Position numbers and translations under genes: made by a program. The notes below the pieces were generated by a model. It was given only the letters and a program-made list of their open reading frames with translations. It had not been told where the DNA came from and made no database searches. From the NCBI RefSeq assembly GCF_002844235.1, contig NZ_PGTS01000009.1, positions 62,001 to 126,000 on the forward strand: a stretch of DNA of 64,000 nt. Reading direction: 5' to 3'. Positions 28,181-37,632 of this stretch are shown in pieces (the first letter of the stretch is position 1; each line of letters opens with the position of its first letter). The stretch comes from Thalassospira povalilytica. Its GTDB lineage: Bacteria > Pseudomonadota > Alphaproteobacteria > Rhodospirillales > Thalassospiraceae.

Positions 28181-28408
28181 TCAATATTGAACAAACAGTG
28201 CCGCGGGCTTTCATAATCGTGCTTTGCGGTCTATATAAAACGCTACGGCAATGGTTCTTTGCCATTGACCGAAAAGTACCTTTGACGGCACCGGCCGGCA
28301 CGGATGGATACCCGGACATCTTTCGGGGGCATCTGGCGTCACGGCCAATTGCCACAAAGGGAAAGTCAAATTGCCCAGGCTGAAATTTTCAGCCCCCAAG
28401 GAGGTTCC

Positions 28409-29842
28409 ATGACCGATCTTCGCACCACTGATAATCTGTTTTTCGCCAAGGGCGATCTTGATCGTGACCGGCTTGAATCACAGGTCAATGACGCGCTGGG
28501 TACCGCCGAAGACGGGGAACTGTTCCTGGAATATCGCCAGTCCGAAAGCCTCGTCTGGGACGACGGACGACTGCGCAGTGCGAATTTCGATACCGCCCAG
28601 GGTTTTGGCCTGCGTGCGGTTGCCGACGAAGCCACGGCCTTTTCCCATTCCAACGAATTGTCCAATGATGCGGTTGCGCGTGCCGCCGAAACCGTCAAGG
28701 CGGTCGGATCAGGTCGTTCGGGCAAGGTCGATTTGGGATCAATCGGCACCAATGTGTCGCTTTATTCCGATGTGAACCCGCTTGGCGAAGCAACGTTCGA
28801 GGCCAAGGTTGACCTTCTGGCCCAGATTGATGCCTATGCCCGGTCGCGTGATCCGCGCGTTGTTCAGGTTTCCGCATCGATTTCCGGCAACTGGCAGGCC
28901 GTGCAGATCTGGCGTTCGGGTGGGCAGCGCATTGGCGATATCCGCCCGCTGGTACGTTTCAATGTCTCGGTCGTTGTCAAACAGGGCGACCGCATGGAAA
29001 CCGGATCGCATGGCGAAGGCGGCCGGATCGGCTATGACGGTTTCTTTGATGAGAAAACCTGGAAAAAGGCCGTTGATGAATCGCTTCGTCAGGCTGTCGT
29101 GAACCTTGATTCCGTTGCCGCCCCTGCGGGTGAAATGACCGTGGTGCTTGGCCCGGGCTGGCCGGGCATTCTGCTGCACGAAGCCATCGGTCACGGGCTT
29201 GAGGGTGATTTTAACCGCAAGGGCACATCGGCCTTTGCCGGGCTGCTTGGTCAGCGCATTGCATCGCCGGGTGTCACGGTAGTTGATGACGGTACCATAA
29301 ATGATCGCCGCGGGTCGCTTTCCATTGATGATGAAGGCACACCGACCCAGCGCACCGTTTTGATCGAGGACGGTATCCTCAAAGGCTTTATGCAGGATCG
29401 CCTCAATGCGCGTCTGACCGGGGTGAAATCAACGGGTAACGGCCGTCGCCAATCCTATGCCCATGCGCCGATGCCGCGCATGACCAACACCTATATGCTG
29501 GGCGGTGACAAGGAACCCGAAGAAGTATTGGCGTCCGTCAAAAAAGGCATCTATGCCGTGAATTTCGGCGGTGGCCAGGTCGACATCACGTCGGGCAAAT
29601 TCGTATTTTCCGCATCGGAAGCCTACCTGATCGAAGACGGAAAGCTTGGCGCACCGGTCAAGGGCGCGACCCTGATCGGCAATGGCCCCGACAGCCTGAC
29701 CAAGGTTTCCATGATCGGCAATGACATGGCGCTTGATAACGGGATCGGCACCTGTGGCAAGGATGGACAGGGTGTGCCGGTTGGCGTTGGCCAGCCGACC
29801 TTGCGCATTGATGGCCTGACAGTGGGTGGGACCGCTGTCTGA
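28409..29842 (+). CDS. tldD: TldD metalloprotease
   Basis: The 477-residue protein is the TldD half of the TldD/TldE zinc protease, known for degrading unfolded peptides, processing microcin-type peptides and CcdA turnover. The catalytic HEAIGHGLE lies at about 257-262, and the glycine-rich C-terminal half contains NTYMLGG. A near-perfect AAGGAGGT ribosome-binding site fixes the ATG at 28409 over an upstream in-frame ATG at 28304. Its partner TldE/PmbA is not in the window. Confidence 0.95.
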   Translation: MTDLRTTDNLFFAKGDLDRDRLESQVNDALGTAEDGELFLEYRQSESLVWDDGRLRSANFDTAQGFGLRAVADEATAFSHSNELSNDAVARAAETVKAVGSGRSGKVDLGSIGTNVSLYSDVNPLGEATFEAKVDLLAQIDAYARSRDPRVVQVSASISGNWQAVQIWRSGGQRIGDIRPLVRFNVSVVVKQGDRMETGSHGEGGRIGYDGFFDEKTWKKAVDESLRQAVVNLDSVAAPAGEMTVVLGPGWPGILLHEAIGHGLEGDFNRKGTSAFAGLLGQRIASPGVTVVDDGTINDRRGSLSIDDEGTPTQRTVLIEDGILKGFMQDRLNARLTGVKSTGNGRRQSYAHAPMPRMTNTYMLGGDKEPEEVLASVKKGIYAVNFGGGQVDITSGKFVFSASEAYLIEDGKLGAPVKGATLIGNGPDSLTKVSMIGNDMALDNGIGTCGKDGQGVPVGVGQPTLRIDGLTVGGTAV

Positions 29843-30093
29843 TAATCCGGCCTGACTCATCCGGATGCAGGGGTTTTCGCCAATTTCTGCATCCGCAAGT
29901 ATAAGAAAACTATACAGACAAATCCAATCTCACCGGTCACCTGAATGGCTTCCATCGGCCCGTCATAGTTCATAATCTGTCTAAAGAAGATCAATAAGGT
30001 TTTGACGCGTCAGGGTTGAAGTTTGCCACCCGGCTTGATTGTCATGATCAAGTCGAGGCGGCCGTCACGATCCGAGAACATTTGGGGGAAAGC

Positions 30094-31563
30094 TTGAAGA
30101 CAAGCCGATGGCGGCACGGTTCTGCAATTGCAACCGTACTTGGCACGCTGGTAATGGGGGTTTCCGGTGCCAATGCCCAGCAAAGCGTTGATGTGCGCAC
30201 AGATGAAGCACGTCAGCTTTCGGACGATTTTGACCGCCTGCGAGACGCCACGGAACGTGCCAACCTGCTTTTGCGCACCGACGATGGCGGCGACATTACC
30301 TATGCCGATATTCTTGCCAATCCTGACGACATTGTTCTGAATTTCCGCTGGGCCAAGGCGCAATTGGCGCGCGGTGAAGTCCGTGGTGCTTCGGCAACCC
30401 TTGAACGCATTCTGGTTCTTGACCCGGATCTGGCGCCGGTGCGGCTTTACTACGCCATCGTGCTGTATCGTCTTGATAGTCTTGATGAGGCACGCGCACA
30501 GTTTGACCGTCTGCGCCAAATGGACATCTCGCCCGAGGTTGCCACCAACATCGACAGCTATGTTGATGCCATCGAAAGACGGCGCCAACGGCTTCGTCAG
30601 GCACTGACTGTCACGCTGGGTTCGCAAGTCGATAGCAACAGAAACTCGGCCCCGAATGATAAACAGCAGTTGGTGACCGGCACCCTGACAAACATCACAG
30701 CAAGTGGTGACAAACCGCAAAACGACATCGCCTATATCGGGGCGCTGCGTTACGATATCAGCTATGATCTTGGCTATCAGGAAGGGCACGAAGTCTTTGC
30801 CAGCGTAACCGGTTATGGCAGCGACCAGGTCAGGCTTGATTCCCTTGATCTTGGTTCGTTTTCTGTTGATGTCGGAACCCGTCTGCGCGGCGGTTACTGG
30901 ATGCTGACACCAAGTGTGAACCAGACCGTCCAATCGCTGAGCAAGGAAAAATACCTGACATCCCGTTCAGGACGGCTGCGCCTTGACTGGAACCCGCGCC
31001 CGTTTTTCAACCTCAATGGCGAAGTCAGTTATGCTGATGAGCGTTTTCAGAACACGAGTGAATCCAGTGCATTGCGCCTTCATTCCGGTCAACGCTATGG
31101 CAGCAGGCTGGGCACGAATTACAGCTGGCCCCCCAACAACCGCACCTCGTTTAACCTTTCTGCAGGTAAAAAGGAGGCTGCGCGCAACTATTACAGCTAT
31201 GACAGCTTGAGTGGCGAGTTGATCCATGCTTATCTGTTTGGTGGGGGAAGTTACATAAGTGGAAGTTTCCGCTATGGGATCGACCGGTATCGCGATCCGG
31301 ATTATCTGGTGACGGGCAATTCACCCCGCCACCGCATGGATCGCAGCGCACGGACAAGATTGACCTATGGCGCGCCTCTTTCACAAATACTGCCATCGGA
31401 TTTGTTTGGGGATAGTAATACGGCAAATCAGATTTATGACCTGCTTGCGCCAATCAACTGGTCGATCACAGGTGAATATCTGAACACTAAATCGAACATT
31501 CCCAACTATGAATACCACAATGCCAGGGCGCAGATTTATCTGACCCGGCGATGGGAGTTCTAG
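30094..31563 (+). CDS. Slam-like outer-membrane protein: TPR domain plus beta-barrel (surface lipoprotein assembly modifier family)
   Basis: The protein has 489 residues. A signal peptide (MKTSRWRHGSAIATVLG, cleavage near SGANA-QQ) is followed by TPR-like helices (LNFRWAKAQLARGEVRGASA, LERILVLDPDLAPVRLYYAI, LDSLDEARAQFDRL) to about residue 175. The rest is rich in alternating aromatic/polar strands and ends in ...YLTRRWEF, an outer-membrane beta-signal. This TPR-plus-barrel layout and length match Slam (DUF560) proteins, which pass lipoproteins or soluble hemophores across the outer membrane. The start is a TTG at 30094 with GGGGGAA upstream, chosen because it opens the signal peptide; a TTG at 30016 also exists. 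It is the first of three tightly linked genes. Confidence 0.8.
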   Translation: MKTSRWRHGSAIATVLGTLVMGVSGANAQQSVDVRTDEARQLSDDFDRLRDATERANLLLRTDDGGDITYADILANPDDIVLNFRWAKAQLARGEVRGASATLERILVLDPDLAPVRLYYAIVLYRLDSLDEARAQFDRLRQMDISPEVATNIDSYVDAIERRRQRLRQALTVTLGSQVDSNRNSAPNDKQQLVTGTLTNITASGDKPQNDIAYIGALRYDISYDLGYQEGHEVFASVTGYGSDQVRLDSLDLGSFSVDVGTRLRGGYWMLTPSVNQTVQSLSKEKYLTSRSGRLRLDWNPRPFFNLNGEVSYADERFQNTSESSALRLHSGQRYGSRLGTNYSWPPNNRTSFNLSAGKKEAARNYYSYDSLSGELIHAYLFGGGSYISGSFRYGIDRYRDPDYLVTGNSPRHRMDRSARTRLTYGAPLSQILPSDLFGDSNTANQIYDLLAPINWSITGEYLNTKSNIPNYEYHNARAQIYLTRRWEF

Positions 31564-31565
31564 TG

Positions 31566-33026
31566 ATGCTGAACAATGCGACCACCACCCTTCACCACCG
31601 GTTCAAACACCTCGTGCGCGGTGCTGCGCTTTGTGCCGTTTGTGCCCTGCCCCTGATGCAAGCAGCACCGGCCCGGGCCGAAGTCACCGTTGAAATGGCA
31701 GGCGTATCCGCCGCTGTTACCGGCGATGTGACACTTAACAAGGTAACAGGCGAAATCGGCATCCTTGTCGAAAGCGGCATGCCTGTCTATCTGGGCGACC
31801 GGATCATCACATCCCCCAATTCGGGAATGCAGATCCTGCTGCTTGACGAAACCGTTTTCACCATTGGTCCGGACAGCGACGTTGCCATTGACGAGTTTGT
31901 CTATGACCCTGCCACGGGCGATGGACGGATTGTTGCCGATATGGCGCGCGGGGTCATGCGGTTTGTCACCGGAAAAATTCCGCTAAATAACCCGTCGAGC
32001 ATGGATATCAACCTTCCGGTCGGCTCAATCGGCATCCGGGGAACCATCGGCCTGATCCGGTCGGTTTCGGTCGAACAGGCCAATGCAATTCTGCCGGGTT
32101 CTTTTGATACATCCGATCCCGACACCGCCAATCAGCAGATCTTTATGGCGGTCAATCAGGGCCCCGGCCTTGCACGTAACGACACAACATCGCGCCCGGG
32201 CGCCTTCGCTGTGACCGATCAGAATGGCAACAGTGAAAATATCACCGGGGAAAATTTCGGGGTGTTTGTTGGCAGCAACGTGGTGACAGAACCATCACGC
32301 TTCCCGCTTGGTGCGGCGAATTTTGACTTCTCGACCAATCTTGTTCGCACGGCATCGCGCAGCGATGATGACAGTGACGGCACCAGCAGTGGCACATCAA
32401 CATCAACCACCCAAAATGCTGCAGCGTCCTCGCAACAAACCGGCCTGACCGCTGGCCAGGCCCAACAGGCAAATGCACAAACCGGCTCGAACATGGTCGG
32501 CAGCATCGAAGTGGCTATGGCGCAACTTAGTGCAACATCCGCGTCAGGAGCCCAAAATGAAATCACCTCCATTTTGGGCAACATCGATACCGCGAGCAGC
32601 AGCAACAATAATAACAACAATAGCAACGATCCATTCACCTACGATGCATTGCGCCAGATCACCAGTGGTTCCGTGTCGACCGGCACGATCAATGTTGACG
32701 GAGCAGACGTGGATTACAGCTTCAGCTCGACAGTCGATTTCGCCAACCGGACAATTGCCGTCCTGTTTTCAAACATCACCCAGACTGGATCGGGCCTGAC
32801 CGGCAAGGCTGGTATTCTGGATGGCAGCTTCAATCCTTCGACCCTTGATTACACCAGCAGCTCGGGCAATGTTGAGTTTGCAAGCGGGGACTTCTCGTAC
32901 GACCCGAACTGTAGCGCTCTTGGCTGCAGCGCGACTGCCACATTCAAGGACGCCTACAATGTCGAATTCAATTTGTCGACCACGACCTACACTTCGGGGA
33001 CGGACGGCAGCGCGACACTGAACTAG
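31566..33026 (+). CDS. Secreted FecR-domain protein with low-complexity linker and beta-rich C-terminal region
   Basis: The protein has 486 residues. A Sec signal (cleavage near ARA-EV, about residue 38) lacks a lipobox. A FecR domain follows (about 45-190): GDRIITSPNSGMQILLLDETVFTIGP-type pattern, then VGSIGIRGTIG. A Ser/Thr/Gln/Asn-rich linker (about 255-355) contains SSSNNNNNNSND. The C-terminal 120 residues alternate polar and hydrophobic residues and carry a Cys pair (DPNCSALGCSA). They look like a small beta-barrel or sandwich, reminiscent of the barrel domains on Slam substrates. GGGAG precedes the ATG, which is 2 bp after the Slam-like gene. No FecI-type sigma gene is nearby, so this is not the iron-citrate system. 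Confidence 0.82.
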   Translation: MLNNATTTLHHRFKHLVRGAALCAVCALPLMQAAPARAEVTVEMAGVSAAVTGDVTLNKVTGEIGILVESGMPVYLGDRIITSPNSGMQILLLDETVFTIGPDSDVAIDEFVYDPATGDGRIVADMARGVMRFVTGKIPLNNPSSMDINLPVGSIGIRGTIGLIRSVSVEQANAILPGSFDTSDPDTANQQIFMAVNQGPGLARNDTTSRPGAFAVTDQNGNSENITGENFGVFVGSNVVTEPSRFPLGAANFDFSTNLVRTASRSDDDSDGTSSGTSTSTTQNAAASSQQTGLTAGQAQQANAQTGSNMVGSIEVAMAQLSATSASGAQNEITSILGNIDTASSSNNNNNNSNDPFTYDALRQITSGSVSTGTINVDGADVDYSFSSTVDFANRTIAVLFSNITQTGSGLTGKAGILDGSFNPSTLDYTSSSGNVEFASGDFSYDPNCSALGCSATATFKDAYNVEFNLSTTTYTSGTDGSATLN

Positions 33027-33062
33027 GCTGACGCAGGCTGTAATACGAAAACAGGACCAGAC

Positions 33063-35345
33063 ATGCGCCTGAGCAAAAACAGCCTGCTTCGCGTTCTTCA
33101 TTATCTGATTCCGTTGGGCATCCTGCTGACTTGCATCTTTTTGCGATGGCAGGATGTTCCATTCGTCGATCAGATGCGGATGAGTGTTTTTGACACCTAT
33201 CAGCGTATTGCACCGCGTCCTTTTGAAGATGTCGGGGTGCGTATCATCGATATCGACGAAAAAAGTCTTGAGGAACTGGGCCAATGGCCCTGGCCGCGCA
33301 CCCGGCTTGCCGGGCTGGTGTATCGGTTGCGTTCGGCAGGTGCACGAGTTGTCGGGTTTGATGTGGTCTTTGCCGAACCCGATCGGACGTCACCTGCGCG
33401 CGTGGTCAAGGACTGGCCCAAGGGTCGTGAGATCGGCGAAATCACGGCACTGGCCGAAAGCCTTCCTGATCATGACAGCCTGTTTGCCAAATTCATCCGC
33501 GGTACGGGACAGGTCGTCACAGCTATTCAACTTAGTACCAAAAAGCTTGAAACCCCGCCGCGCCAGATTGGCAATTTCAGTGTTTCCGGCGAAGCCGGGC
33601 GTCAGTTATCCGATTTCATCGCCGTATTGCCTGGGGCTGCGAAGAACCTTGATGTCATAGAAGAAGCCGCAAGCGGCAACGCACTGGTCAATGTTTCACC
33701 CGGTCAGGATGGGGTGGTCCGGCGGGTCCCGTTGCTGGCCGCACTTGACTATGACCTGCCCGCAATTGGCATGCCGATCTATCCGACCCTGTCGATGGAG
33801 ATGCTGCGCGTGCTGCAAGATGCACCGCGAACCATGAATGTCCGTCTTTCGGGCGCAAGCGGCAGTGCCCGCTGGACCCAGTCCGAAGGGGTCGAAGCCA
33901 TCCGCGTTGGCGCGGTCACCATCCCGACCGACTATGCCGGATATATGTGGGTGCATTTTACCGGTCATAAGCCCGAACGTTACATTTCAGCCGTTGATGT
34001 CATGACCGACAAGCTGCCAGCCGACAGCCTGCGTAACACATATGTTCTGATCGGCACCAGCGCAGCCGGGCTGCTTGATTTGCGCTCGACCCCGCTTGAC
34101 CGGGTTCTTCCCGGGGTCGAGGTCCATGCAGAAATGCTTGAACAGATGCTGCTTGGGCATTTTTTGACCCGCCCCTATTGGGCAGCGGAAAGCGAAAGCC
34201 TTGCCCTGCTTTTGATCGGTCTGTTTTTTGTGTTTGCGGTTCCGCGACTTGGTGCGGTCTGGCCAGCCGTGATTGGCGGCACCCTTGCATTTGGTGCGGC
34301 CGGTATTTCCTGGTGGGCATATGATGCCAAACTGCTGCTGATTGATCCGGTCTATCCGCTGGTCAGTTTGCTGGCAGTGTATCTTGCCACCAGTTCAATC
34401 GGCTTCATGCGGACCGAAGGCGAACGCCGCCAGGTGCGCACGGCATTTGGCAACTATTTGTCCCCGGCACTGGTCAATGAATTGTCGCGCCATCCCGAAC
34501 GCCTGAAACTGGGCGGTGAAACCCGCGACATGACATTGATGTTTTGTGATGTTCGCGGATTTACATCCATTTCCGAAGGTTTCAAATCAAATCCGCAAGG
34601 ATTGACACGCCTGATCAACCGGCTACTGACACCTTTGACCAAATGCATTCTCGATCGCGAAGGCACCATCGACAAATATATGGGCGACTGCATCATGGCA
34701 TTCTGGAATGCGCCGCTTGATGTTGAAAACCACGCCCATCATGCATGTGACAGTGCCCTTGCCATGCGACAAGCACTTGATGTTCTCAATACCGAACGCC
34801 TTGCCGAAGCCAAACGCGACAATGAACCTTTCCTGCCGCTGAATATCGGGATCGGGATCAATTGCGGGGATTGCCTGGTCGGCAATATGGGATCCGATCA
34901 GCGGTTTGATTATTCTGTGCTGGGCGATGCGGTCAATCTGGCGTCGCGCCTTGAAGGTCAGTCAAAGAATTACGGTGTTGATATCGTTCTGGGCGAAGAA
35001 GTCGCCAAACGGGTGGAAAACGATTTCGCCACCCTTGAACTTGACCTGATTGCGGTCAAAGGCAAAAGCGAAGCTGTCCACATCTTTGCACTGCTTGGTG
35101 ATGGCAAGCTGTGCCATACTGATGCATTCCGAAACTGTGCGGCTCTTCATAAATCCATGCTTGCGGCCTATCGCCAGCAACATTGGCAAGAGGCCGAAAA
35201 CCTGATTGCGCAATGTCGTCAGGCATCACGCGGTATTGGCGCGCTTGCAGGTCTGTATGACATGTATGCCGAGCGCATTGCCACATTCCGCACAAGCCCG
35301 CCGCCCGCCGACTGGAACGGGGTGTTTGTGGCAACCAGCAAATAG
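33063..35345 (+). CDS. CHASE2-domain adenylate/guanylate cyclase
   Basis: This 760-residue membrane protein has one N-terminal helix (about 10-27), a periplasmic CHASE2 sensor (about 35-350, with VRIIDIDEKSLEELGQWPWPR), three membrane helices (about 374-450) and a cytoplasmic class III cyclase domain. Metal-binding Asp496 is in MFCDVRGFT and Asp542 in DKYMGD. Lys538 in DKYMG and the VLGDAVNLASRLEG stretch indicate an active cyclase, more likely adenylyl. A short helical tail follows the catalytic domain. It starts 36 bp after the FecR-domain gene and is presumably the inner-membrane output of that operon. Confidence 0.9.
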   Translation: MRLSKNSLLRVLHYLIPLGILLTCIFLRWQDVPFVDQMRMSVFDTYQRIAPRPFEDVGVRIIDIDEKSLEELGQWPWPRTRLAGLVYRLRSAGARVVGFDVVFAEPDRTSPARVVKDWPKGREIGEITALAESLPDHDSLFAKFIRGTGQVVTAIQLSTKKLETPPRQIGNFSVSGEAGRQLSDFIAVLPGAAKNLDVIEEAASGNALVNVSPGQDGVVRRVPLLAALDYDLPAIGMPIYPTLSMEMLRVLQDAPRTMNVRLSGASGSARWTQSEGVEAIRVGAVTIPTDYAGYMWVHFTGHKPERYISAVDVMTDKLPADSLRNTYVLIGTSAAGLLDLRSTPLDRVLPGVEVHAEMLEQMLLGHFLTRPYWAAESESLALLLIGLFFVFAVPRLGAVWPAVIGGTLAFGAAGISWWAYDAKLLLIDPVYPLVSLLAVYLATSSIGFMRTEGERRQVRTAFGNYLSPALVNELSRHPERLKLGGETRDMTLMFCDVRGFTSISEGFKSNPQGLTRLINRLLTPLTKCILDREGTIDKYMGDCIMAFWNAPLDVENHAHHACDSALAMRQALDVLNTERLAEAKRDNEPFLPLNIGIGINCGDCLVGNMGSDQRFDYSVLGDAVNLASRLEGQSKNYGVDIVLGEEVAKRVENDFATLELDLIAVKGKSEAVHIFALLGDGKLCHTDAFRNCAALHKSMLAAYRQQHWQEAENLIAQCRQASRGIGALAGLYDMYAERIATFRTSPPPADWNGVFVATSK

Positions 35346-35477: not shown

Positions 35478-36497
35478 ATGAATTTCTCGTCTGATAATGT
35501 GTCGCCAATCTGTCCGGAAATATTGAACGCGATCGCCGCCGAAAGCGAAAGTGCCGCCCTTCCATACGGGGCAGATGACCAAAGCCGGCAACTTGATGCC
35601 GCCTTTTCCAGATTGTTTGGCACAGATGTATCGGTGGTGCCGGTGGCGACCGGGACGGCGGCCAATCTTATCGGATTATCCGGGCTTGTTTCCCCGTTTG
35701 GCGGGATTGTTTGCCACCATCACGCCCATATCAATATGACGGAATCAACCGGTGTGGCCTTTTATGGCAATGGCGCCAAACTTCTGGGCATTGACGGTCC
35801 GTCCGCCAAGATCGAGGCCGAAACCCTTGACCGGTATCTGAGCACCCATATTTCCAATGGCATGCATTCGGTTGATCCGGAATGTGTTGCGATCACCCAA
35901 AGTACGGAATTCGGAACGGTTTATGACGTTTCGGAAATTCAGGCGATCGGCAAGGTCTGCCAGAAACACCAGACCCGTCTTTTCATGGACGGGGCACGTT
36001 TTGCCAACGCGGTCGCAGCCCTTGACTGTCATCCGGCCGACATCACCTGGAAGGCTGGTGTTGATGTTCTGAGCTTCGGGGCCACAAAGAATGGCGCATT
36101 GGCGGTTGATGCGATTGTGCTGTTTGACCCGGCCTTGCGCCGCCACACCGAAAAAAACCGCAAACGTGGCGGACACCTGTTTTCAAAGCACCGCTATCTT
36201 GCCGCACAATTGCTGGCATATCTGGAAGATGATCTTTGGCTGCGCAACGCCCGCCACGCCAATGAAGCGGCCAAAGAACTGCAAAAAAGCCTTGAACAGA
36301 TTGGTGCGACTGCGGCCTTTCCGCCGCAAGGCAACGAGCTGTTTATGCATATGAATGACGATCTTGCCAAACGTCTGGGCGACAATGGCCTGGCATTCCG
36401 CCCGTGGGGATCCATTGGCCCGGATGCCTATCGGTTTGTCTGTGCCTGGAACAGCCCGATTGAGGCCATCCGCGATCTGCCTCACACACTTGCCTGA
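35478..36497 (+). CDS. Threonine aldolase family protein, divergent first copy of a tandem pair
   Basis: This 339-residue PLP enzyme of the low-specificity L-threonine aldolase family has SFGATKNGA as the Schiff-base Lys site and FMDGARFANAV with the PLP-binding Asp. It lies 115 bp upstream of a second, more canonical copy of identical length. The active-site stretch reads CHHHAHINMTEST, while the second copy has CHHEAHINEDEST, the form closest to typical threonine aldolases. This copy may therefore act on a different beta-hydroxy amino acid. The ATG at 35478 is aligned with the second copy's start. Confidence 0.88.
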   Translation: MNFSSDNVSPICPEILNAIAAESESAALPYGADDQSRQLDAAFSRLFGTDVSVVPVATGTAANLIGLSGLVSPFGGIVCHHHAHINMTESTGVAFYGNGAKLLGIDGPSAKIEAETLDRYLSTHISNGMHSVDPECVAITQSTEFGTVYDVSEIQAIGKVCQKHQTRLFMDGARFANAVAALDCHPADITWKAGVDVLSFGATKNGALAVDAIVLFDPALRRHTEKNRKRGGHLFSKHRYLAAQLLAYLEDDLWLRNARHANEAAKELQKSLEQIGATAAFPPQGNELFMHMNDDLAKRLGDNGLAFRPWGSIGPDAYRFVCAWNSPIEAIRDLPHTLA

Positions 36498-36612
36498 TCC
36501 GCGCTGTTTGCCAAAATAACGCCCGCCATGTGATAAGCATTCAAAGCCCGCCTGCCCGGTTGCACCCGATCAGGGTTCACCGGACTGCCACCAGATAACT
36601 GCGAGATAGAAG

Positions 36613-37632
36613 ATGAATTTTGCCTCTGACAATGTGTCGCCCTTTTGCCCGGAAATCCTTGAAGCCCTGAGCGCAGAAGCCAAAAGCAACGCCCCGGCCT
36701 ATGGCGGTGATGACATCAGTCAGCAACTTGACCATGCCTTTTCCGAACTGTTTGACAAGGAAGTGGCCGTCATCCCGGTTGCGACCGGCACCGCCGCCAA
36801 TTGCATCAACCTGTCGGCACTTGTGTCCCCCTATGGCGGCATCATTTGCCATCACGAGGCCCACATCAACGAAGATGAAAGCACCGGGGTTGCCTTTTTC
36901 ACCGGCGGGGCAAAACTGATTGCGATGGACGGCCCGACCGCCAAGCTTGAAGCAGATGCCCTTGACCGCTTTGTTGCCGGTCAGGTCAATCGCGGGGTGC
37001 ATTCAGTTGCGCCGGAATGCGTTGCCATCACCCAGGCCACCGAACTTGGCACGGTCTATCGCCCGGACGAGGTTGCGGCCATTGGCGATGTGTGCCGCAA
37101 ACACGGTCTGCGCCTGTTCATGGATGGCGCACGTTTTGCCAATGCGGTTGCCCATCTTGATTGTTCCCCGGCAGACATCACCTGGAAAGCCGGCGTGGAC
37201 GCCATCAGTTTCGGCGCCACCAAAAATGGTGCAATGGCGGTTGATGCCATTGTGCTGTTTGACACAAGCCTGAAACATCGGGTCGAGCAGGCCCGCAAAC
37301 GCAGTGGTCATTTGCATTCCAAACATCGCTATCTGGCGACCCAGCTTCTGGCCTATGTCAAAAATGACGTGTGGCTCAAGAATGCCGCGCATGCCAACAA
37401 GGCCGCCGCGACCCTTGGCGACATCCTGATCGGGCGTGGTGCAAGCCTGGCCCATCCGGCCGATGGCAACGAACTGTTTGTCAACCTGTCGTCTGAACTG
37501 GCTTCGCGATTGCGGGACGCCGGGGTAATGTTCCATCCGTGGCCGTCACTCGGGGCGGACATCTATCGCTTTGTTGCGGCCTGGAACACGGATATCGGGC
37601 AAATCACCGAATTGAATACTACCCTGGGGTAG
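36613..37632 (+). CDS. ltaE: Low-specificity L-threonine aldolase, canonical second copy
   Basis: The 339-residue PLP enzyme cleaves threonine or allo-threonine to glycine and acetaldehyde. It has MNFASDNVSPFCPEIL at the start, CHHEAHINEDESTG with the catalytic His region, GGAKL, FMDGARFANA, and the PLP lysine in SFGATKNGAM. It is a tandem duplicate of the upstream gene: equal length, collinear, and by eye more than half of residues identical. The two probably arose by local duplication. Confidence 0.9.
   Translation: MNFASDNVSPFCPEILEALSAEAKSNAPAYGGDDISQQLDHAFSELFDKEVAVIPVATGTAANCINLSALVSPYGGIICHHEAHINEDESTGVAFFTGGAKLIAMDGPTAKLEADALDRFVAGQVNRGVHSVAPECVAITQATELGTVYRPDEVAAIGDVCRKHGLRLFMDGARFANAVAHLDCSPADITWKAGVDAISFGATKNGAMAVDAIVLFDTSLKHRVEQARKRSGHLHSKHRYLATQLLAYVKNDVWLKNAAHANKAAATLGDILIGRGASLAHPADGNELFVNLSSELASRLRDAGVMFHPWPSLGADIYRFVAAWNTDIGQITELNTTLG

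Follow-up and report, generated by a model that had tools for sequence, protein, structure and literature searches.

What does a CHASE2 sensor sense? The question is raised by a three-gene locus in a 64,000-nucleotide stretch of DNA from Thalassospira povalilytica, a member of a marine genus (contig NZ_PGTS01000009.1, positions 62,001 to 126,000; the whole stretch is called the window here). Genes for a predicted outer-membrane barrel protein (A), an exported FecR-domain protein (B) and a CHASE2 class III cyclase (C) follow one another on the same (+) strand, their reading frames separated by spacers of 2 bp (A-B) and 36 bp (B-C). What switches CHASE2 sensors is mostly unknown, and the operon bears on that question; the factors that they recognise were not known as of 2016 (PMC5192318; literature is cited throughout from the available excerpts of each text). 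The operon is real and conserved, and its most likely place is in signalling from the outer membrane to CHASE2 cyclases, as a variant with a secretion-type pore and a FecR-tagged cargo. Its features are as follows.

30094-31563, + strand: gene A, TPR region followed by an outer-membrane barrel of 14 predicted strands, divergent relative of type XI secretion system (T11SS)/Slam (DUF560) proteins (Pfam, barrel-only hidden Markov model, AlphaFold2)
30319-30519, + strand: TPR region of A, residues 76-142 (Pfam, AlphaFold2)
30592-31560, + strand: predicted barrel of A, residues 167-489 (AlphaFold2, barrel-only homology)
31566-33026, + strand: gene B, 486-residue exported protein with a FecR domain, probably cargo as well as reporter (reading frame, Pfam)
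31566-31679, + strand: signal peptide of B (Sec type), approximately residues 1-38, with E following APARA (by eye, hydropathy, comparison of N-termini)
31692-32270, + strand: FecR domain of B, of the CHASE2-cyclase-linked subfamily, with weak likeness to the LapA retention module (Pfam PF04773, alignment, NCBIfam NF033682)
32280-32627, + strand: low-complexity Ser/Ala/Thr/Asn linker of B, 116 residues (sequence)
32628-33023, + strand: C-terminal domain of B, 132 residues, candidate secretion domain (genus alignment)
33063-35345, + strand: gene C, CHASE2 class III adenylate/guanylate cyclase, 760 residues (Pfam)
33123-34226, + strand: CHASE2 sensor domain of C, residues 21-388 (Pfam PF05226, 201.7 bits)
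34524-35075, + strand: class III cyclase domain of C, residues 488-671 (Pfam PF00211, Guanylate_cyc, 75.6 bits)

The spacing, frames and shared strand are as a first-pass annotation of the window had described them, and reading frames and Pfam confirmed the domain content that it had given to the three genes. Gene A starts at a TTG and encodes 489 residues ending in RRWEF; its TPR_19 match lies above the cut-off (26.5 vs 25 bits) and 14 strands are predicted, in agreement with the TPR-plus-barrel protein ending in WEF of that annotation. Protein B had been read as a secreted FecR-domain protein with a disordered Ser/Asn linker and a beta-rich C-terminal region; a signal peptide, a FecR domain, a Ser/Asn linker and a conserved C-terminal domain were all recovered. 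Its FecR domain (PF04773) is above the cut-off (27.1 vs 24 bits), and its signal peptide, which is of the ordinary kind with no lipobox (both judged by eye), forms the sole membrane-type stretch in the hydropathy profile, leaving no inner-membrane anchor of the FecIR kind. Model NF007296 gave no match to B at E ≤ 1, compared with matches in all eight other FecR proteins tested of the ten present in the genome. In protein C the CHASE2 and class III cyclase domains both exceed their cut-offs, and a simple hydropathy scan found three membrane stretches. The intact Asp496/Asp542 and Lys538 reported earlier are present together with Asn625, Arg629 and Ser618, a group that we take to be the catalytic metal, base-selecting and transition-state set; Lys538 points to cyclic AMP (cAMP) rather than cyclic GMP as the probable product.

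B-like genes were found in 25 of 29 same-genus genomes, the window's own included. Twenty regions were fetched from 19 genomes, comprising 18 of the 24 other B-positive genomes of the genus and one of the same order. The A-B-C run was intact in 17 of the 18 and was cut by contig ends in the other (G011), while in the same-order genome (G057) the order was B-A, with C on the opposite strand. The association of the three genes is more than chance adjacency, and a neighbourhood survey of the kind that the first-pass annotation had proposed returned triplets beyond the genus as well. The closest named relative was Thalassospira profundimaris, with a cyclase identity of 89%. Mean pairwise identity across 13 genus loci was 84.6% for the TPR part and 84.0% for the barrel of A, 75.8% for the CHASE2 and 78.3% for the cyclase part of C, and 84.6%, 52.9% and 52.2% for the FecR domain, linker and C-terminus of B, respectively. 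In B, then, the C-terminus varies as much as the linker does, which would be expected of an exposed or ligand-facing part; a Cys pair in this C-terminus is invariant in 17 of 17 genus sequences. The window's own genome holds one full-length A (three more weak matches cover the TPR part only), one FecR protein of the operon type among 11 Pfam-FecR proteins, and two CHASE2 proteins, one of them without a cyclase match, hence one CHASE2 cyclase; it also encodes nine class III cyclase domains and 12 cyclic-nucleotide-binding domains. Because the three partners form a closed set, and the genus is a harmless one, the question is directly testable in this genome.

Across the genomes of the class, FecR shows a strong association with CHASE2, judged by counts that are all raw, uncorrected for phylogeny or genome size. 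By public Pfam models alone, FecR was present in 137 of 289 genomes, CHASE2 in 138 and both in 126, so that CHASE2 occurred in 126 of the 137 FecR genomes vs 12 of the 152 FecR-less ones. The operon-type FecR subfamily was found in 111 of the 289 genomes, 107 of which had CHASE2, using a model (33 domains, three of them beside SlipAM genes only) that is biased because the other 30 domains come from cyclase loci. Physical proximity was also seen, with 42 of the best 150 FecR places lying within 10 kb of one of the best 150 CHASE2 places. Sequence of at least 5 kb on both sides was available for 45 of 80 named cyclase loci; ten of these had A and B (two in Thalassospira), one A only and 16 B only. 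In 20 more regions chosen for strong FecR matches, some of which end at contig ends, A was present in ten and C in six. SlipAM, the Pfam family of Slam pores, occurred at 37 places in 31 of the 289 genomes, and eight of these places adjoin an operon-type FecR gene and/or a CHASE2 cyclase, seven of them exceeding the SlipAM cut-off.

A had been annotated as a Slam-like barrel. T11SS topology is described as a TPR with a 14-strand barrel (PMC8406197). The AlphaFold2 model of A (12 sequences; predicted local distance difference test score, pLDDT, 79.4) has N-terminal helices followed by 14 long strands, and the predicted protein has the same arrangement of an N-terminal periplasmic TPR and a 14-strand barrel. 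By BLASTP, window A aligned with a protein at locus L192 over nearly its full length (34% identity, E 1e-90) and also matched L193 and L190, all three of which exceed the SlipAM cut-off. Because TPR-driven similarity had to be excluded, a barrel-only profile was made from 15 cyclase-linked A barrels, picked solely by BLAST to window A and containing no TPR and no Slam seeds, and was run on 1546 picked open reading frames (ORFs; some loci present twice) and their reversed copies. At E ≤ 10 it returned exclusively A-type and SlipAM-locus proteins and zero reversed sequences. Among its matches was the SlipAM protein with the highest score in the class sample (E 6e-13); others, classical ones included, were matched at 1e-15, 9e-11 and 5e-8. 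In stop-to-stop frames the profile reached 20 of the 37 SlipAM loci at E ≤ 0.001, eight of them beside FecR or cyclase genes and 12 not. Among 12 A proteins scanned with Pfam at E ≤ 0.01, SlipAM was found in four and TPR_Slam in five; the TPR_Slam (PF24575) score of window A is below the cut-off (23.3 vs 35.2 bits).

On these sequence comparisons the barrel of A is homologous to Slam/DUF560 barrels. We call A a divergent relative of T11SS pores, and not a certified member, because the barrel homology was found and a match to Pfam SlipAM was not; the earlier Slam-like label therefore survives for the barrel and fails on the Pfam model. Structure comparison was set aside as a family test, as it returned generic barrels and TPR barrels that leave the family undecided: Foldseek ranked BcsC first and second and placed CymA, EstA, PelB and OmpG within the first 20. 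Matches to TPR barrels are to be expected, since the 50 PDB hits listed include no Slam. An initial profile of A (A2.hmm), which had absorbed Slam proteins during iteration, was likewise dropped as homology evidence in favour of the barrel-only profile and kept solely for labelling loci in the neighbourhood counts and the cyclase tree.

Relatives of B point to the kind of cargo that such a pore might carry. In sister operons (Rhizobiaceae, Paracoccus and others) the C-terminus of B resembles TbpB/fHbp/NHBA-type barrels. A profile of seven A-linked FecR-protein C-termini matched PDB entries of GNA2132/NHBA (E 7e-8), fHbp (0.0014) and TbpB (0.019), with the first unrelated entry at E 0.089, and at E ≤ 0.1 Pfam TbpB_B_D and FHBP_C were each found in six of the seven. 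NHBA is Slam-dependent. The same holds for TbpB and fHbp, according to published abstracts. Non-FecR matches of an extended C-terminal profile (20 sequences, E ≤ 1e-4) were confined to SlipAM loci (11 distinct), and all four such ORFs scanned exceed the Pfam TbpB_B_D cut-off. The Thalassospira-type C-terminus differs, a DF-x-R motif being all that it has in common with the TbpB-like type. Of 48 FecR proteins encoded no more than 1 kb from an A gene, 37 had one of the two types (outside the genus, 19 of 29), as counted with profiles trained partly on the counted proteins and after de-duplication (L057/L084 are one genome, as are L072/L085). A TbpB-like barrel, with which the first-pass annotation had proposed a comparison, is supported in sister operons by the PDB profile matches, and we do not claim it for window B, because PDB and profile-profile searches gave nothing significant there. 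A Slam-type pore may "place or load" the FecR protein, as had been suggested. At one cyclase locus (L149:4008-6818), two adjacent FecR proteins carry the window-type C-terminus, with an A gene about 2.4 kb off; their side-by-side position suggests duplication.

The FecR domain itself also bears a weak resemblance to another module. The LapA retention-module model NF033682 matched 29 of 33 operon-type FecR domains at E ≤ 0.01 (best 6e-11) and the cut-out FecR domain of window B at E 0.002 (18.3 bits, below the cut-off of 50), and matched none of eight classical FecR proteins of the same genome at E ≤ 0.05; classical proteins were given whole in this comparison, and operon-type ones as cut-out domains, N-terminal parts or whole. 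N-terminal parts matched in ten of ten cases at E ≤ 0.1, and whole proteins of the type I secretion system (T1SS) kind described below in four of five. Models Lsa33 and LipL45 also match many operon-type FecR domains, and Lsa33 some classical ones too. In LapA-type adhesins the retention domain is periplasmic and the adhesin spans an outer-membrane channel (PMC6890996, PMC13090378). Because it resembles this module, the FecR domain may be the part of B that remains periplasmic and does the reporting; the likeness supports, without proving, B as a held transport intermediate with its inner end towards CHASE2.

At 12 cyclase loci (L109, L113, L115, L121, L097, L111, L118, L132, L102, L130, L136 and L126), the FecR domain lies near the N-terminus of long T1SS-adhesin-like proteins, a label based on length and C-termini and least clear for L126 and L136; some of the proteins are truncated where the locus ends. 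All three such loci tested (L118, L130, L097) had HlyD and ABC transporter genes nearby, and VCBS or tandem-95 repeats were found in all five proteins tested with NCBIfam, in one below the cut-off only. Nine of the T1SS-type N-termini have no clear Sec signal by eye, in contrast to the A-linked proteins. A toxin-subunit match inside the repeat of a Bradyrhizobium adhesin (16.6 bits vs an NCBIfam cut-off of 201) was rejected as chance. In genomes of the same order, window B also matches open frames some 10,000 codons long (G032:C35, G044:C1), probably giant adhesins.

The pore-linked and T1SS-linked loci separate on a tree of the cyclases, built with a quick method and a midpoint root from 99 rows out of 116 loci with any cyclase match, omitting 11 near-identical genus loci and six of weak or short coverage (L020, which is CyaK, L134, L143, L149, L163 and L216). 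Of 32 pore-linked rows, 29 fall within one 50-row group (support 97 in the Shimodaira-Hasegawa-like approximate likelihood ratio test, SH-aLRT), the exceptions being L181, L190 and L155, and all 12 rows labelled as T1SS adhesins fall within a 34-row group (SH-aLRT 99) devoid of pore-linked rows. Since partner types cluster on the tree, partner type tends to be inherited with the cyclase.

Taken as a whole, we give an even chance to a reading in which the Slam-like pore A holds its cargo B, and the periplasmic FecR domain of B sets the output of the CHASE2 cyclase. A would be a T11SS-like (Slam-like) outer-membrane pore that recognises the C-terminal domain of its cargo B, and this domain would travel as far as the pore or enter it, in the direction of the cell surface. 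The FecR domain would fold in the periplasm and serve as a retention domain that holds B in mid-transport, the flexible linker being threaded through the pore or positioned at it. The FecR domain would also contact the CHASE2 sensor of C, and the cAMP output of C would depend on the state of B: loaded, pulled, liganded or absent. Along this route we infer the export of B, the location of its FecR domain, the contact with CHASE2, the direction of the signal, a ligand and the cAMP product. Tentatively, and with the balance leaning against it, the reading may be widened to a general, undescribed principle: surface proteins would be arrested as transport intermediates, by means of FecR/retention-type domains, in outer-membrane export machines of different kinds, and CHASE2 enzymes would read the held domain. 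It is an equally tentative thought that T11SS-like pores would serve one CHASE2-cyclase group and type I secretion another, pore and trapped cargo together making a surface sensor.

Several results weigh against the proposal that A holds B. Known Slam cargo passes through its pore, which would leave the FecR domain outside unless transport stalled. For A, SlipAM (PF04575) gave no match to the window protein at E ≤ 1, short of its curated cut-off, and had zero matches in the window's own genome; 17 of the 37 SlipAM loci were missed by the barrel-only profile. For B, the window-type C-terminus had no Pfam match and no significant PDB match, its profile-profile comparison with the TbpB-like type (E ~0.02 over 10-18 columns) was not significant, and an AlphaFold model (6 sequences, pLDDT 34) was uninformative and was discarded. 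The TbpB_B_D and FHBP_C scores of the FecR proteins lie below the Pfam cut-offs wherever bits were shown, and one of the two C-terminal types was also present in 12 of 36 FecR proteins with no A gene within 1 kb (11 of 35 outside the genus, counted in the same way). The NF033682 scores shown, about 16-40 bits, are all below the cut-off of 50; whole window B gave no match at E ≤ 1, the cut-out domain alone matching, and one of the five long T1SS-type proteins gave none. Lastly, 18 of the 45 cyclase loci had neither A nor B, and some of the loci counted had earlier contributed to the profiles for A, B and C.

The nearest precedent would give A another role. In Sinorhizobium meliloti, the outer-membrane barrel receptor NsrA is required for cAMP signalling via the CHASE2 cyclases CyaK and CyaD1/CyaD2 (PMC7529298, PMC13001267), and the unannotated frame of 1219 residues directly upstream of the cyclase on pSymB (L020), which we took as NsrA, has FecR and TPR matches in Pfam, the barrel being that described in these papers. 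By analogy, A could be a ligand-binding barrel that exports nothing and B a periplasmic relay to CHASE2. Such a role would suit the 11 of 48 A-adjacent FecR proteins (de-duplicated) with neither C-terminal type, as well as the N-terminal part of NsrA, the sole experimentally supported case, which had no match to NF033682; both findings also count against retention of B in a pore. Yet NsrA did not match the A-barrel profile, so that an A-type barrel in NsrA was rejected, whereas the A barrel is Slam-related; the other 37 of the 48 carry one of the two conserved C-termini, the first of which is Slam-cargo-like. We consider the receptor role unlikely. If instead B were wholly exported, FecR domain included, only a periplasmic backlog would bind CHASE2, and cAMP would report that backlog. 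Known Slam cargo does cross its pore unfolded (PMC9090332), and the ordinary signal peptide of B without a lipobox agrees with such a course, which becomes rather improbable given the likeness of the FecR domain to the LapA retention module, which is periplasmic, and its position in the T1SS-linked relatives, close to the end that LapA-type adhesins keep inside.

Two further explanations concern A and the operon as a whole. The Foldseek ranking, headed by BcsC, would fit a barrel that exports polysaccharide in the manner of BcsC, PelB and PgaA, and an operon that regulates an envelope polysaccharide. However, 14 long strands are predicted for A, not 16, its barrel is homologous in sequence to Slam, and no glycosyltransferase was recognised beside A by eye, no scan having been made; this explanation seems very improbable. 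Just as little credence attaches to three genes that are merely co-transcribed, with no common signalling function, because triplets occur beyond the genus, divergent arrangements included, the association extends across genomes and partner types cluster on the cyclase tree.

Other gene neighbourhoods touch on these subjects. In Shinella (L022:9104-16091) NHLP-type exporter genes and a gene for a cyclic-nucleotide-binding protein come after the triplet, and in Ensifer (L019:1-5860) genes of these kinds adjoin a reduced version, in which the TPR and FecR genes are small and diverge from the cyclase gene; export at these loci might be a cAMP-controlled output. On Paracoccus aminophilus pAMI5 (L021:1224-3050), a cyclic-nucleotide-binding patatin-like phospholipase gene on the opposite strand adjoins the triplet, and its product is a possible cAMP effector. 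In the window's own genome, the second CHASE2 protein (L010:1405-3300 and L002:411-2130) lacks a cyclase domain; about 1.1 kb 3' of its gene begins a pair of sigma-factor-like and classical FecR genes, with a phosphoribosyltransferase-like frame in between. Elsewhere in that genome, about 1.1 kb separates the coding regions, on the same strand, of a class III cyclase domain and a cyclic-nucleotide-binding domain (G000:C3:569375-571169).

One more feature precedes the operon:

29843-30093, + strand: upstream intergenic region, probable promoter region

A consensus scan found no sigma-70-like site in this region upstream of A; the promoter scan gave 5 sites vs 4.3 expected. Terminator-like sites numbered 14 vs 7.6 expected, with none on the + strand within the A-B and B-C gaps. 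Upstream of A lies a TldD-like gene (28304-29842) and directly 3' of C two tandem threonine-aldolase-like genes (35479-37632), all recognised by eye and apparently unrelated to the operon. By eye, no sigma-factor gene was recognised among the flanking frames, no sigma model having been run.

Should A hold B as we propose, a protein-secretion pore would be tied directly to internal cAMP signalling, T11SS-like pores would gain a signalling role and a class of FecR-fused cargo would be identified. NsrA-CyaK, the Campylobacterota cluster, BiofilmReg and LapA retention, which are compared below, would be united in one idea.

In FecIR-FecA a FecR domain relays from the outer membrane. The operon shares with that system a FecR domain; it differs in its FecR subfamily, in a B protein exported without an inner-membrane anchor and in that no sigma factor was recognised by eye beside it. 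NsrA-CyaK is similar in that a gene for an outer-membrane barrel with FecR and TPR lies directly 5' of a CHASE2 class III cyclase gene; NsrA, however, is one chain of about 1200 residues, whereas here the pore and the FecR protein are encoded by two genes and B bears an extra C-terminal domain. In Campylobacterota, genes for a CHASE2 cyclase, FecR, TPR and a phosphodiesterase cluster, from which the authors inferred one pathway (PMC9239204). The same three domain types thus occur together there, with the differences that a phosphodiesterase is included and that, in the excerpted text, the TPR protein is not tied to secretion and no secretion barrel is mentioned. The BiofilmReg operon of Burkholderia contaminans, in which an insertion in the first gene (a response regulator) abolishes biofilm, likewise encodes a periplasmic FecR protein next to a CHASE2 sensor (PMC5192318); there CHASE2 belongs to a histidine kinase, FecR is joined to LysM and the operon is described, in the excerpts, without a barrel.

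The clustering of the three gene types (Campylobacterota) and outer membrane-to-CHASE2-cyclase signalling (NsrA-CyaK) are therefore already known. Within the open-licence literature searched, the link of such signalling to secretion pores and cargo barrels, the resemblance to a retention module and the two-group pattern appear to be new: no paper was found there that joins the surface lipoprotein assembly modifier with FecR, or FecR domain, type I secretion and adhesin, and the available main text of two T11SS surveys (PMC12282271, PMC8406197) does not contain the terms FecR, cyclase or CHASE2. With T11SS (Slam, DUF560, SlipAM) the operon shares a TPR plus predicted 14-strand barrel, a homologous barrel sequence and a neighbouring exported protein; it differs in that window A fails SlipAM, the putative cargo has a FecR domain and a cyclase follows. 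With LapADG it shares an N-terminal periplasmic domain that would retain a surface protein in an outer-membrane channel, and a link to a second messenger (PMC6890996, PMC13090378). There, cyclic di-GMP controls the adhesin, whereas here the held protein would control the messenger, a mirror image of Lap control in which an anchored protein governs the second messenger.

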